Notes under the pieces: model-generated
Databases searched by the model: none
What the model was told of the DNA's origin: nothing
The model's input: only the letters and a program-made list of their open reading frames with translations
Shown here: positions 18,767-38,971 of the stretch, piece after piece
Position numbering within the stretch: the stretch's first letter is position 1
How the letters are laid out: each line of letters begins with the position of its first letter
DNA from: Treponema sp.
GTDB lineage: Bacteria; Spirochaetota; Spirochaetia; Treponematales; Treponemataceae
Assembly: GCA_016288205.1 (NCBI GenBank)
Contig: JAEEYO010000054.1
Location: 1-64,000, forward strand
Direction of reading: 5' to 3'
Length of the DNA stretch: 64,000 nt
Translations under genes and position numbers: made by a program

Positions 18767-18812
18767 AATGGACCTGATTTAGGGGGGATTACGTCAGTAA
18801 TCTCGAATCCGC
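18767..18812. repeat. Dispersed repeat, copy 1 (core plus palindrome)
   Basis: TGGACCTGATTTAGGGGGG is a variant of the core TTGACCTGATTnAAGGGATT, followed by the palindrome GATTACGTCAGTAATC (18787-18802) and CTCGAATCCGC. The palindrome and tail recur at 19611-19636. Located 90 bases before BrnT. Confidence 0.6.
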
Positions 18813-33684: not shown

Positions 33685-34239
33685 ATGAAAATCACGAAAA
33701 ACACGGTTGTTACAATCAACTACACGCTTAAGGGCGACGACGGAAACGTCATAGACACATCGGTGGGAAAAGATCCTCTCATCTACATGCACGGAAACAA
33801 TTACCTCCTGCCTAAACTCGAGGAGCAGATTGAGGGACACGAGCCGGGGGACAAAATCAGCACGGTGCTTTCCCCTGCCGACGGATATGGCGAATACGAC
33901 GAGAACATGGTCGCCCAGGTTCCGAGGGAAAACTTTGAGTTTGACGGAGAGATTGCTGTCGGAACAAAATTCCAGGCGGACACTCCACAGGGGCCTGCCA
34001 TCGTCACCGTAACAAAGGTCAGCGACAAGATGATAACCGTGGACGCGAACCACGAGCTTGCAGGAAAGACGCTGCATTTTGAGGTGGAAATCCTTGAGGC
34101 TCGCGAGGCAAGCCAGGAAGAGATCGCCATGATGGAAGAAGGCTGCGGATGCGGTGGTTGCGGAGGATGTGGCGGCGGCTGCGGAGACGGTTGCGGCGGG
34201 GACTGTGGATGTGGCTCCGACTGCAACGGATGCAACTAA
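33685..34239 (+). CDS. slyD: FKBP-type peptidyl-prolyl isomerase SlyD
   Basis: 184 residues. VTINYTLKGDDGNVIDTS and the IF-domain region YGEYDENMVAQVPRENF are SlyD-type, with the C-terminal metal-binding tail extremely rich in Cys and Gly (GCGCGGCGGCGGGCGDGC and onward): about 14 cysteines in the last 40 residues, and no histidine-rich segment as in E. coli. It is a folding catalyst and nickel/zinc buffer. It starts 30 bases after the Nfu gene. Confidence 0.9.
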   Translation: MKITKNTVVTINYTLKGDDGNVIDTSVGKDPLIYMHGNNYLLPKLEEQIEGHEPGDKISTVLSPADGYGEYDENMVAQVPRENFEFDGEIAVGTKFQADTPQGPAIVTVTKVSDKMITVDANHELAGKTLHFEVEILEAREASQEEIAMMEEGCGCGGCGGCGGGCGDGCGGDCGCGSDCNGCN

Positions 34240-34326: not shown

Positions 34327-35232
34327 ATGGGTATAAATGAATTTACAACAGAAGAAGAATATCTTTCTCTGATGCACACGGGAGCACTCCTTAACCCGCG
34401 TTTGGATTCCACATTCAAGGCACTGTTCACGCAGGCAACGGAGGAATCCAGAAACGCACTGAAATCATTTTTGGAGGCCGCAACTGAGCAAAAAATTGCA
34501 AGTTTTGAGCTGGCCCCAAATGATGCCCCGACGGAATTCAGCGGACAGCGTGGAATCAGCTACGACATCCTATGTACATTCGACGACGGGACTGCTGCAG
34601 ACATTGAGATGCAGTCATTCAATCAGGAATACGATTACGGAAAGCGCGCGGAGTATCAAGTTGCCCGGTTGGAAACGACATATCTCAAAAAAGGGGATAA
34701 CTGGGAAAAAGCTCCTATGGTTTTTCAGATTACCGTACTGGATTTTATATACAACAAAAACAACAATAAGGCAGTAAGCCGTTATGCGATGCGAACTCCA
34801 GACGGTGACGAGCTTTCCAATGCCCTGAATATAATTTTCATTGAGCTTCCCAAGGCAAAATTGCTTGAGCAGAATCTTGACGAGAACACGCTGCTTGAAA
34901 ACTGGGCAATTTTTCTAAAGGAAGCAGACAACCAAGAGAAAAAGGATTTAATCCTAAAACTTACGGCCAAGGAGGATGGACTTATGCAGGCACAGAAATC
35001 ACTTTCATCAATCAGTGCAAACCGTGATTTGTGGATTGCACAGTACAGGCAGGAAATTGCCGACCGTGACAAACGCTCCAGCATAAGTGCGGCAATACAA
35101 AAGGGGCGTGCGGAAGGAATCCAAAGCGAAAAAGCAGAGACTGTAAAGCGACTAGCCGACATGGGATTGACAGAAAAGCAAATTGCACAAGCCGTAAATC
35201 TCCCTGAAGAGGAAGTCCGCAAGTTTCTGTAA
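34327..35232 (+). CDS. Rpn family PD-(D/E)xK nuclease (recombination-promoting nuclease / transposase-like)
   Basis: 301 residues. NPRLDSTFKALFTQ is the usual Rpn/PDDEXK_2 start, and YDILCTFDDGTAADIEMQ gives the D-x(n)-E-x-Q/K catalytic core, followed by QVARLETTYLKKGDNW and VFQITVLDFIY. The C-terminal part is a helical tail ending EKQIAQAVNLPEEEVRKFL, similar to the tail of Rpn proteins. These nucleases act in RecA-independent recombination and are treated as transposase-like. The start is supported by a promoter at 34292-34320 that ends six bases before it. Not part of an insertion sequence here. Confidence 0.88.
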   Translation: MGINEFTTEEEYLSLMHTGALLNPRLDSTFKALFTQATEESRNALKSFLEAATEQKIASFELAPNDAPTEFSGQRGISYDILCTFDDGTAADIEMQSFNQEYDYGKRAEYQVARLETTYLKKGDNWEKAPMVFQITVLDFIYNKNNNKAVSRYAMRTPDGDELSNALNIIFIELPKAKLLEQNLDENTLLENWAIFLKEADNQEKKDLILKLTAKEDGLMQAQKSLSSISANRDLWIAQYRQEIADRDKRSSISAAIQKGRAEGIQSEKAETVKRLADMGLTEKQIAQAVNLPEEEVRKFL

Positions 35233-35509: not shown

Positions 35510-35647
35510 GCAAGGATTCAAGGCAGCTCCAAAATCAACAGATTGCGGGACTGCCGAAGTATGCATTTTTTCATTGCATGTCTTGAACATAGCCTATGCC
35601 CTGACTCTTGACAAGTCCTAAAACCTCAAATATTACGTATATCACAG

Positions 35648-35683
35648 AACATTACATGTATAATATGGCTGTCATGTTATGTT
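35648..35683. promoter_or_regulatory. Dyad operator before the LuxR-type regulator
   Basis: AACATTACATG (35648-35658) and CATGTTATGTT (35673-35683) form an inverted repeat matching at 10 of 11 positions with a 14-base spacer. It lies just upstream of the -35 box and is a candidate regulator site. Confidence 0.5.
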
Positions 35684-35690
35684 TTTCAAC

Positions 35691-35719
35691 TTGAAAATTA
35701 TTGAAAATCGCTGTAACAT
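35691..35719 (+). promoter_or_regulatory. Promoter of the LuxR-type regulator gene
   Basis: TTGAAA (35691-35696), 17 bases, TAACAT (35714-35719). The spacer and the TTTT-C-x-x-CTTGAAAA context are shared with the lipoprotein promoter at 36574-36602. Confidence 0.5.
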
Positions 35720-35737
35720 ATTCATGGTTAAGTGGCT

Positions 35738-36541
35738 ATGAAAAATTTTATCTACAGCAAAAAAACAAAAGTCTCCATAAAAATTGTTTCCATAATCGCC
35801 ATGTTGATTCTTGTCCTCGCGAATTTTTCCAAGCTGGTCAATCTTTTTTCAGGCAAAGTCAAAAATGATTTTTTTTTCTGGTTTATCTCAAATCTCCTTA
35901 TTATGGGTCTTTTTGTTTTTGTCGTCATTTATCCGCACAAATTCTCACTCATAGCACTTGCATGTCTTTTCTACGCCGTATCAATCATTCCCTATGAGCA
36001 ATTCAATCCGATGGGCGTATTGATGTTCGATTTGGCCATGGTGATTCTGAACATAAGAGGATTTTTTAGGGTCCATGCAAAAATTAAGGTTGCCCTGTTT
36101 ATTCTTTTATTGATTGCCCTGCACTTACCCATATTACGCTTCGGCCCAATTTCCCTTATGACAGCTTTCATTGAGAGCATAGGTTTTTCCTTTGTCTTTT
36201 TCATGGGCATATTTTTTGCCTACGGATACGCGAGCAGGAACGCGCCCGAAGAGAAAATCCTGAACATTGCAAAATATGAGGGGCTGAAGGAATCCGACGC
36301 GGAGATGCTGCGACGTGTGCTTGACAACCAACAGTACAAGGTGATTGCGATAGACTTACAGAAAAGCGAGGGAACAATCAGGAACCGCCTGAACAAAGTC
36401 TATGACATCCTTGGTGTCGCAGACCGTATCGGTTTCATCACCACCTTCACAGGATACGAGCTTATATACAAACCTGAAATTGAAATCACAGAAAATCAAG
36501 TTGCGGAAGCAGCCGCACAGTCCAAACCACAACAAAACTGA
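35738..36541 (+). CDS. Membrane protein with C-terminal LuxR-type helix-turn-helix
   Basis: 267 residues. Six or so hydrophobic segments fill residues 15-165 (LILVLANFSKLVNLF, FISNLLIMGLFVFVVIY, LIALACLFYAVSIIPYE, FILLLIALHLPILRF, FSFVFFMGIFFAYGY). The C-terminal part has a LuxR-like helix-turn-helix: LKESDAEMLRRVLDNQQYKV, AIDLQKSEGTIRNRLNKVYD, ILGVADRIGFITTF. It would be a membrane-tethered one-component transcription regulator. ATG 35738 is chosen over the GTG at 35732; neither has a good ribosome binding site. Its promoter context recurs before the lipoprotein gene, suggesting that it controls itself and that gene. Confidence 0.65.
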   Translation: MKNFIYSKKTKVSIKIVSIIAMLILVLANFSKLVNLFSGKVKNDFFFWFISNLLIMGLFVFVVIYPHKFSLIALACLFYAVSIIPYEQFNPMGVLMFDLAMVILNIRGFFRVHAKIKVALFILLLIALHLPILRFGPISLMTAFIESIGFSFVFFMGIFFAYGYASRNAPEEKILNIAKYEGLKESDAEMLRRVLDNQQYKVIAIDLQKSEGTIRNRLNKVYDILGVADRIGFITTFTGYELIYKPEIEITENQVAEAAAQSKPQQN

Positions 36542-36573
36542 TGTTACATTCGTAATATTTCATATTTTCCGCC

Positions 36574-36602
36574 TTGAAAACTCCCGAAACCTATTGTAAA
36601 CT
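36574..36602 (+). promoter_or_regulatory. Promoter of the lipoprotein/rSAM operon
   Basis: TTGAAA (36574-36579), 17 bases, TAAACT (36597-36602). Upstream, ATGTTACATT (36541-36550) and AATATTTCAT (36554-36563) form a weak dyad (7 of 10) sharing TTACAT with the operator at 35648. This region overlaps the end of the regulator gene. Confidence 0.5.
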
Positions 36603-36633
36603 TATTATATCAAATCCAAAAAAGGAGAAGCTT

Positions 36634-37020
36634 ATGATTCATTGGAACTTTAGCAAAATTGCGACATCCGTTCTGGCCGTCCTTGGAATCGGAACACTGA
36701 CATCATGCTATGGAATGGCACCGAACTACGCGGGCATTCAGGGAAACGTCACCTCAACGAAGGACAGCGACGGCAACGGTGAGAATGATCCGGTTCAGGG
36801 AATCAGCGTGCGTGTGATCGACTCGGACGGAAGGGAGATTGACAGAAGCACGACGAATGAAAGCGGAAATTACTATCTCTCCACAAGCGCCCAGGATTCC
36901 GAAGTCACTGTTGTCTTTGAGGACGCTGACGGAGCCTTCAAATCCCAGAGCAAAAAAATCAACCTTGCGGACATGAGCAACGAGCTCAACGCAGAGCTTG
37001 AAGATTCCGATGGCGAGTAA
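36634..37020 (+). CDS. Small lipoprotein of the rSAM/lipoprotein system
   Basis: 128 residues from ATG 36634 (AAAAAGGAG upstream). The signal peptide ends in GIGTLTSC, a lipobox with Cys25; the mature part GIQGNVTSTKDSDGNG to VQGISVRVIDSDGREID and TTNESGNYYLST is a carboxypeptidase-regulatory-like beta sandwich (G-x-x-x-V-x-V, then T-x-x-x-G-x-Y-x). The tail is acidic. Its end overlaps the radical SAM gene by 11 bases. It matches the known layout of lipoproteins encoded next to a dedicated radical SAM enzyme in Bacteroidetes and treponemes (rSAM/lipoprotein system). The modification, if any, is unknown. Confidence 0.75.
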   Translation: MIHWNFSKIATSVLAVLGIGTLTSCYGMAPNYAGIQGNVTSTKDSDGNGENDPVQGISVRVIDSDGREIDRSTTNESGNYYLSTSAQDSEVTVVFEDADGAFKSQSKKINLADMSNELNAELEDSDGE

Positions 37021-38128
37021 GACAAAGCTTAGTCTCGGCGACAAGATAAAAAGAAATATTTTTGCCCTTTACCGGAAGAGCGTCACAAAGCGGCACGAGC
37101 TGAACTATCTGTTCTGGGAATGTACGCTGAGATGCAACCTGAACTGCCGTCACTGCGGATCGGACTGCCTCAAGTCTTCCGGCATAAAGGACATGCCCAT
37201 TGAGGATTTTGCGAGGGTCCTGGACAGCATAAAATCAAAGAACACGGCGAAAAATCTTGCGGTCGCAATCACCGGCGGAGAGCCACTTGTGCGGGATGAT
37301 TTGGAAAAAGCCGGAATGGAAATCATCAGGCGCGGATTCTCATGGGGCATAGTCACGAACGCACTTCTCCTCAGCGAAGAAAGATTCCGCTCCCTCAGAA
37401 AAAGCGGTCTCTCATCAATGAGCGTGAGTCTTGACGGACTTGAGGAGCAGCACACTTATCTCAGGAGAAATCCGAAATCATTTCAGACCGTAGTTAGTGC
37501 GATTGAAATCATGGCGGAGGAGCACAGGAAAAATCCACAGGGCTTTATCTTCGACGTGATTACCTGCGTGCACCGAGGGAACCTTGCGGAACTTCCAGAG
37601 CTGCGTGATTTTTTAATCCAAAAGGGTGTCGGGGACTGGCGCATCTTCTCCATATTCCCGTCAGGAAGAGCCGCGAGCGAGGATCTCTCCCTAAGCCCGG
37701 AGAAGTACAGGCAGATGATGGACTTCATCGCGGAGACACGAAGCTACCGTAACGAGGAGGGAAAGGGAATCCACCTGAACTATTCGTGCGAGGGCTATCT
37801 TGGTTCATACGAGCTAAAGGCACGGGACTTTTTCTTTTTCTGCAGAGGCGGAATCAACGTGGGCTCCGTAATGTGCGACGGCTCGATCTCCGCTTGTCTT
37901 TCGGTGAGGGGCAGAGATTTCATTCAGGGAAACATTTACACGGACGACTTCATGGATGTCTGGAACACACGCTATCAAAACATGAGAGACCGCTCGTGGG
38001 CAAAAAAAGGAAAGTGCGCCAAATGCAAAAGCTGGAAATGGTGCAACGGAAACGGACTCCACCTCTACGACACCATGAGCAGCCCTCCCGCCCACTGCAA
38101 TCTCGAGATGCTCGAAGGGAATCCATGA
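37010..38128 (+). CDS. Radical SAM/SPASM enzyme of the rSAM/lipoprotein system
   Basis: 372 residues from ATG 37010. CTLRCNLNCRHCGSDC holds the 4Fe-4S CxxxCxxC (Cys of CNLNCRHC, about residues 38-45). The C-terminal SPASM-type cysteines are in FCRGGINVGSVMCDG, CLSV, CAKCKSWKWCNG and HCNLEM, enough for two auxiliary clusters. The TTG at 36998 would be 12 bases longer; ATG 37010 is chosen. Radical SAM/SPASM proteins of this kind usually modify a peptide or protein encoded next door, here the lipoprotein. Confidence 0.85.
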   Translation: MASKTKLSLGDKIKRNIFALYRKSVTKRHELNYLFWECTLRCNLNCRHCGSDCLKSSGIKDMPIEDFARVLDSIKSKNTAKNLAVAITGGEPLVRDDLEKAGMEIIRRGFSWGIVTNALLLSEERFRSLRKSGLSSMSVSLDGLEEQHTYLRRNPKSFQTVVSAIEIMAEEHRKNPQGFIFDVITCVHRGNLAELPELRDFLIQKGVGDWRIFSIFPSGRAASEDLSLSPEKYRQMMDFIAETRSYRNEEGKGIHLNYSCEGYLGSYELKARDFFFFCRGGINVGSVMCDGSISACLSVRGRDFIQGNIYTDDFMDVWNTRYQNMRDRSWAKKGKCAKCKSWKWCNGNGLHLYDTMSSPPAHCNLEMLEGNP

Positions 38129-38216
38129 ATTGACAAAATCGTCATCTGAAAAGAATTATTCTGCACGTATAGATTTTTTCCTCAAAAACCACTATATTAT
38201 AAATAAGGAGGCTTCT

Positions 38217-38426
38217 ATGGCTAGACCAATCAGAGAAACACCAATTTTATTCGGTGAAGACGGAAAGCGTTTTGAAGAAAAAATGAGTAACGCAAAATGC
38301 ACTGTAACTCCAGAACAATACGCTGTTATGTATTCTCATTATAAGTCAGTTTTGGCAAGCCTTGAGCGAGGTGAAACTGCAAGGAAAAATCGTTTAGCAC
38401 AGAAATCTGGAGAAACGGCAAATTGA
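38217..38426 (+). CDS. Small antitoxin-like partner of the GNAT protein
   Basis: 69 residues from ATG 38217 with AAGGAGG upstream. MARPIRETPILFGEDGKRFE is the N-terminus. It is not a DUF1778 antitoxin, but it sits in the antitoxin position: its TGA overlaps the TTG start of the GNAT gene (TTGA at 38423-38426), so translation is coupled. Function inferred from context only. Confidence 0.55.
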   Translation: MARPIRETPILFGEDGKRFEEKMSNAKCTVTPEQYAVMYSHYKSVLASLERGETARKNRLAQKSGETAN

Positions 38427-38971
38427 GTTTAGATTTCTTTGAACAATACGATATTCAAAAATTTGAAAACGACATACCCACAGAGGAATTTGACTGTGGG
38501 GATGAAGACCTGAATGACTTCATGAAAAATGAAATTCAGTTTTACAAGAATCAGTTAATCGCAATGCCGTATGTCGTTGTTGGAAAAGGAAAAACGGACA
38601 GAGTTTTAGCGTATTTTACACTTTCCAATGACAAGATTGCGGTCACTGATTTCATATCAAACAATCAGTTCAATAAATTTAAAAAGAAAAATTTCAATAA
38701 GGAAAAATATTTAAGAAGCTACCCGTCTGTAAAAATCGGAAGGCTCGGTATTTCTAAAGAATTACAAGGAGCTGGAATCGGTACAAATATAATCGATTTT
38801 ATAAAACTCTATTTTTTGGAAGATAATAAGACAGGTTGCCGTTTTATTACTGTTGACGCATATAATGCCGCCGTTCCATTTTATAAGAAGAATGGATTTG
38901 ATTTCCTTATAAAAAAAGATGAAAACCCAACGCAACTTATGTATTTCGATTTGATAAATTTAATGCAATAG
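38423..38971 (+). CDS. GNAT-family N-acetyltransferase, toxin-like (TacT type)
   Basis: 182 residues with TTG start. FDCGDEDLNDFMKNE is the usual front of TacT-type GNAT toxins, VKIGRLGISKELQGAGIGTNII is the acetyl-CoA loop (R/Q-x-x-G-x-G/A), and FITVDAYNAAVPFYKKNGF is the C-terminal motif. In TacT-type systems the enzyme acetylates aminoacyl-tRNA. The start overlaps the stop of the preceding small gene by 4 bases. The partner is unusual because it lacks the ribbon-helix-helix antitoxin normally found there. Confidence 0.78.
   Translation: MSLDFFEQYDIQKFENDIPTEEFDCGDEDLNDFMKNEIQFYKNQLIAMPYVVVGKGKTDRVLAYFTLSNDKIAVTDFISNNQFNKFKKKNFNKEKYLRSYPSVKIGRLGISKELQGAGIGTNIIDFIKLYFLEDNKTGCRFITVDAYNAAVPFYKKNGFDFLIKKDENPTQLMYFDLINLMQ

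Follow-up and report, generated by a model that had tools for sequence, protein, structure and literature searches.

A membrane-embedded LuxR-type regulator and a putative palindromic operator at a radical SAM/lipoprotein locus of Treponema

Radical SAM (rSAM) enzymes of family TIGR04133 (rSAM_w_lipo) and the small lipoproteins of TIGR04134 (lipo_with_rSAM) are catalogued as a system in NCBIfam, and a literature search found no paper on this system, its signal or its product. NarL/LuxR response regulators such as DosR, VraR and ComA bind dyad operators as dimers. A membrane-embedded architecture with a LuxR-type HTH is exemplified by the transmembrane LuxR regulators DadR, CadR and HcdR of Eggerthella lenta, which were found by Pfam GerE and have 10–12 transmembrane (TM) helices; DadR activates its neighbouring gene in response to dopamine (PMC9734109).

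Here we describe a locus in a 64,000-nucleotide stretch of Treponema sp. DNA (the window; contig JAEEYO010000054.1) that places a LuxR-type regulator beside an rSAM/lipoprotein pair. By its named relatives, this Treponema stands near rumen MAGs. The pair resembles the NCBIfam system in its above-cut-off rSAM, its adjoining and overlapping lipoprotein gene and the YG motif after the cysteine, and differs from it in having an adjacent, operator-linked regulator and a lipoprotein that falls below the TIGR04134 model. The regulator shares the helix–turn–helix (HTH) fold of the NarL/LuxR response regulators but is a membrane-embedded, one-component protein without a receiver domain. By architecture, an N-terminal multi-helix membrane domain followed by a C-terminal LuxR-type HTH, it is likened to the Eggerthella proteins; unlike these, members of the Treponema family have six TM helices, match GerE weakly, and in only 5 of 26 cases, and often have a partner protein of ~180 aa. 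With six predicted TM helices it was not assigned to the transmembrane LuxR family of Coriobacteriia, in which 10–12 precede the HTH. The regulator family, its operator and the partner protein are apparently undescribed so far.

Regulator, lipoprotein and rSAM enzyme

The three genes lie on the forward strand in the order regulator (35738..36541, 267 aa), lipoprotein (36634..37020, 128 aa) and rSAM (37010..38128, 372 aa), the start of the rSAM gene overlapping the end of the lipoprotein gene by 11 bp. An AlphaFold2 model of the regulator built with 26 homologues (mean pLDDT 85.9) contains six long membrane helices within residues 8–167 (8–37, 45–64, 69–83, 92–106, 114–135 and 137–167) and a C-terminal LuxR/NarL-type HTH of four helices at residues 185–237. 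The HTH matched DesR in profile comparison (E = 1.1e-5) and DosR in a structure search that aligned mainly this domain (Z 9.8, rmsd 1.6, 64 residues aligned), and Pfam GerE was reached weakly, by 5 of the 26 homologues. The predicted membrane helices and the HTH, recovered by both profile and structure, bear out the original prediction of a membrane-tethered LuxR-type protein.

The rSAM enzyme scored 478.6 bits against the TIGR04133 model (HMM cut-off 425) and contains the radical SAM and SPASM domains (PF04055 and PF13186). An HMM search of its own genome gave no TIGR04134 match for the lipoprotein (cut-off 39.8 bits). The protein is 59.5% identical to the lipoprotein at locus L035, for whose gene the model gives 39.9 bits; because of this homology to a protein over the cut-off, we take it as TIGR04134-type. 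Together with the TIGR04133 score, this supports the earlier reading of the two overlapping genes as an rSAM/lipoprotein system. The lipoprotein has the lipobox LTSC, with Cys25 encoded at 36706–36708, followed by YGMAPNY, and shows weak, sub-threshold similarity to TTR/CarboxypepD_reg-like domains.

TIGR04133 was matched over cut-off in 43 of 196 Treponema genomes, and 48 rSAM loci were examined in the genus, 47 of which exceed that cut-off. A permissive pattern, a small open reading frame with a cysteine and then a YG motif within ~60 residues, was found near 44 of the 48, L057 being a doubtful case among the 44. The motif takes the forms YGMP, YGVP and YGPA, sometimes several at one locus. 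The region of the YG motif after the lipidated cysteine, YGM(A/P)P here, is most likely the target of the enzyme, which would modify the cytoplasmic prolipoprotein before export, probably around YG(M/x)P. At L057 (G102:C138), a TIGR04133-level rSAM occurs without an evident lipoprotein, and a nearby 46-aa peptide ending in ITGGYCVGYGGLPAR is a GG-leader-like candidate substrate.

The surrounding genes were also annotated. On the 5' side of the regulator lie an FKBP-like, SlyD-like protein with a C-terminal tail rich in cysteine and glycine (33685–34239; GCGCGGCGGCGGGCG...) and an Rpn family nuclease/putative transposase (34327–35232; TIGR01784, PF12784). Directly after the rSAM gene, a 98-aa protein and an overlapping GNAT acetyltransferase (PF13673) occupy 38130–38971, an arrangement resembling a GNAT toxin–antitoxin pair.

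Promoters and operator sites

Each of the two transcription units has a forward-strand promoter with the −35 element TTGAAA and a 17-bp spacer, the −10 element being TAACAT for the regulator (35691..35719) and TAAACT for the lipoprotein/rSAM pair (36574..36602). The pattern CTTGAAAA-N5-GAAA-N5-TGTAA is exact at 35690–35716 and 36573–36599. Within the window no other site fits it with three mismatches or fewer, and the 3.5-Mb genome has no further exact match, so the shared pattern and 17-base spacing originally proposed were confirmed.

A de novo dyad search upstream of regulator homologues returned ATTAC-N4-GTAAT, with an overlapping TATTA-N6-TAATA, as the strongest signal. ATTAC-N4-GTAAT occurred exactly upstream in 5 of 32 cases, compared with 0.035 by shuffling. 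We therefore treat this 14-bp palindrome as the operator unit; in some promoters it is found in tandem at ~19–22 bp, including ~20–22 bp at L146 and L113. Sites in the window were ranked using a 20-bp position weight matrix (PWM) compiled from other genomes, with the window genome and the related genome G179 left out. The best match in the 64 kb (PWM 21.8) was the lipoprotein-promoter operator at 36540..36559 (GATGTTACATTCGTAATATT), which overlaps the regulator stop codon and is centred ~24 bp upstream of the −35 element. Rank 2 (PWM 16.1) was the regulator-promoter operator at 35648..35667 (AACATTACATGTATAATATG), preceded by 19 bp by a weak copy at 35629..35648 (AATATTACGTATATCACAGA; PWM 10.5, rank 4 in the window) and followed by an extra half site, identified by sequence, at 35673..35683 (CATGTTATGTT); none of these sites is assigned a strand. 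Thirty random 64-kb sequences generated by a Markov model gave top scores with a mean of 8.8 and a maximum of 14.0; the matrix used for them was nearly identical but included the site from G179. Window matches at 18788 and 19612 (ATTACGTCAGTAAT) were rejected as operators on their low PWM scores.

The two dyads first noticed at these promoters are thus real, although their units had to be redrawn: the 36-bp 'strong' dyad is one operator plus the half site that formed its 3' arm, and the lipoprotein-promoter dyad, originally ranked as weak, is the better operator of the two.

Taken as a whole, the locus is best explained by a one-component membrane regulator that binds ATTAC-N4-GTAAT and controls both itself and the lipoprotein–rSAM pair, a reading to which we assign a probability of about 0.76. 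The six-helix domain would sense an envelope signal, and the cytoplasmic LuxR/NarL-type HTH would bind the palindromes upstream of its own promoter and of the lipoprotein–rSAM promoter, giving autoregulation and control of the pair. The position of the sites, upstream of the −35 elements as is typical of activation, suggests that the regulator acts as an activator. A repressor, for example a sensor that lets go of its DNA site once the lipoprotein layer is perturbed, would be a variant compatible with the same operator binding, and repressors, too, often have autoregulatory tandem sites; given that the operators do not lie over the promoter, we regard this variant as unlikely. A defined operator, together with a candidate activator, would provide a handle to switch the operon on and seek the modification.

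Conservation of the arrangement among Treponema genomes

The arrangement recurs in Tb.RUG.153 (G179; L038 and L114), where the regulator is divergent from the lipoprotein–rSAM operon. The G179 intergenic region contains 18 bp identical to the lipoprotein-promoter operator of the window (longest match by shuffling, 13), and the −35 element lies 33 bp from the start of the operator in G179 and 34 bp from it in the window. Control by the regulator of itself and of the pair, as originally proposed, is well supported at the sequence level, because the operator is found across genomes, its window copies rank first and second by PWM, its core is kept in G179 despite the inverted gene order, and its exact copies are distributed as described below.

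An operator with an adjacent regulator was found at only 2 of the 48 rSAM loci, namely the window locus and G179. In G191 (82%) and G005 (83%), whose rSAM enzymes are the nearest relatives at loci lacking the regulator, there is no operator either. TIGR04133 and a regulator homologue occur together in 18 of the 196 genomes, near the ~14.5 expected by chance, and a genus-wide association was accordingly rejected. The co-occurrence and dyad conservation implied by the original prediction therefore hold within this lineage, through G179, and fail for the family at large. The regulator appears to be a local addition to the system, and the suggestion that it is the missing sensor finds no support outside this lineage. 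Since the full arrangement is confined to two genomes, the linkage of regulator and pair could be recent and lineage-specific.

The same rarity would be expected if regulator and pair had come to lie side by side in a small clade by coincidence, with the operator serving the regulator alone and the lipoprotein site being a leftover or serving another output. In G060 and G113, moreover, the regulator (a fragment in G113) lies ~1.7–3 kb from the pair, and the lipoprotein has no operator. Such a coincidence is nevertheless improbable, as the best operator of the window is the one at the lipoprotein promoter, and it is this site that is conserved in G179 at a nearly equal distance from the −35 element. 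In UBA1233 (L126, 1882–2241), only the C-terminal remnant of an rSAM is left, directly adjoining a fragment of a regulator HTH. A deletion running through the divergent module took parts of the rSAM, lipoprotein and regulator together, as expected if the module were lost as a unit.

Exact copies of the 14-mer ATTACRTAYGTAAT are present in 6 of the 196 genomes. Only three of these, G000, G060 and G113, hold more than one copy, and each of the three has a close regulator orthologue; G179, the fourth genome with such an orthologue, carries divergent copies and no exact 14-mer. Operators were located upstream of partner–regulator operons in G060, G113, G153 and G071, and a recognisable site was absent upstream of most of the more distant regulator homologues. 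By PWM, lipoprotein promoters at loci without the regulator lacked the operator, apart from one score of 14.3 upstream of an rSAM in G013 (L045), where no regulator was found nearby and the site is probably due to chance. Searching genome-wide for ATTACNNNNGTAAT with one mismatch was too noisy and was abandoned. Two other readings of the palindrome, as the target of a different transcription factor or as a dispersed intergenic repeat, in either case only correlated with the regulator, are very improbable: although its copies cluster in tandem and have common flanks within related genomes, they are few (2–7 per genome), lie 5' of regulator operons and exported-protein genes, are missing from almost every genome that lacks a close regulator orthologue, and have a spacing and symmetry that suit a dimeric LuxR/NarL HTH.

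The only exact operator pair in the window genome, a tandem at C12:6196–6229 with a spacing of 20 (L146; G000:C12, 6193–6232), precedes the gene for a 221-aa lipoprotein, a probable further member of the regulon. Operator-linked genes elsewhere mostly encode signal-peptide proteins or lipoproteins.

The wider regulator family

Homologues of the regulator occur in 66 of the 196 genomes. The window genome contains a second one on C63, 33% identical to the first; it could cross-talk with the window regulator, although its upstream region yielded no operator. Many family members are co-transcribed with the ~180-aa partner, 28 of the 29 full-length matches in the genus being located directly upstream of a regulator homologue. 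The window genome lacks the partner and hence the two-gene partner–regulator arrangement. The partner is conserved and all-helical (as in L117, 9392–9994); Pfam gave no family above its cut-off for it, and no fold in the PDB matched it clearly.

About 8 of the 30 regulator loci examined are close to C39-type exporters or GG-leader peptide genes. At L117, the exporter gene and the partner–regulator operon have one operator between them, and a second lies 5' of a GG-leader peptide gene. On account of such neighbours, and of the operator-linked genes for signal-peptide proteins and lipoproteins, the family seems to control exported products and to have been recruited here to the rSAM/lipoprotein pair. 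More tentatively, a six-helix LuxR-type family with its own operator and partner may control exported and modified products in rumen Treponema, from GG-leader/C39 loci to the rSAM-modified lipoprotein of the window, and the exported peptide or lipoprotein may itself be what the membrane domain senses, in a peptide-type feedback. The family, its operator and its partner suggest that exported peptides and lipoproteins make up a larger regulon in these bacteria. Regulator homologues by C39-type ABC exporters and GG-leader peptides were seen at L117, L120, L169, L179 and L181, loci that resemble peptide export loci, and L120 and L179 also carry other rSAM enzymes.
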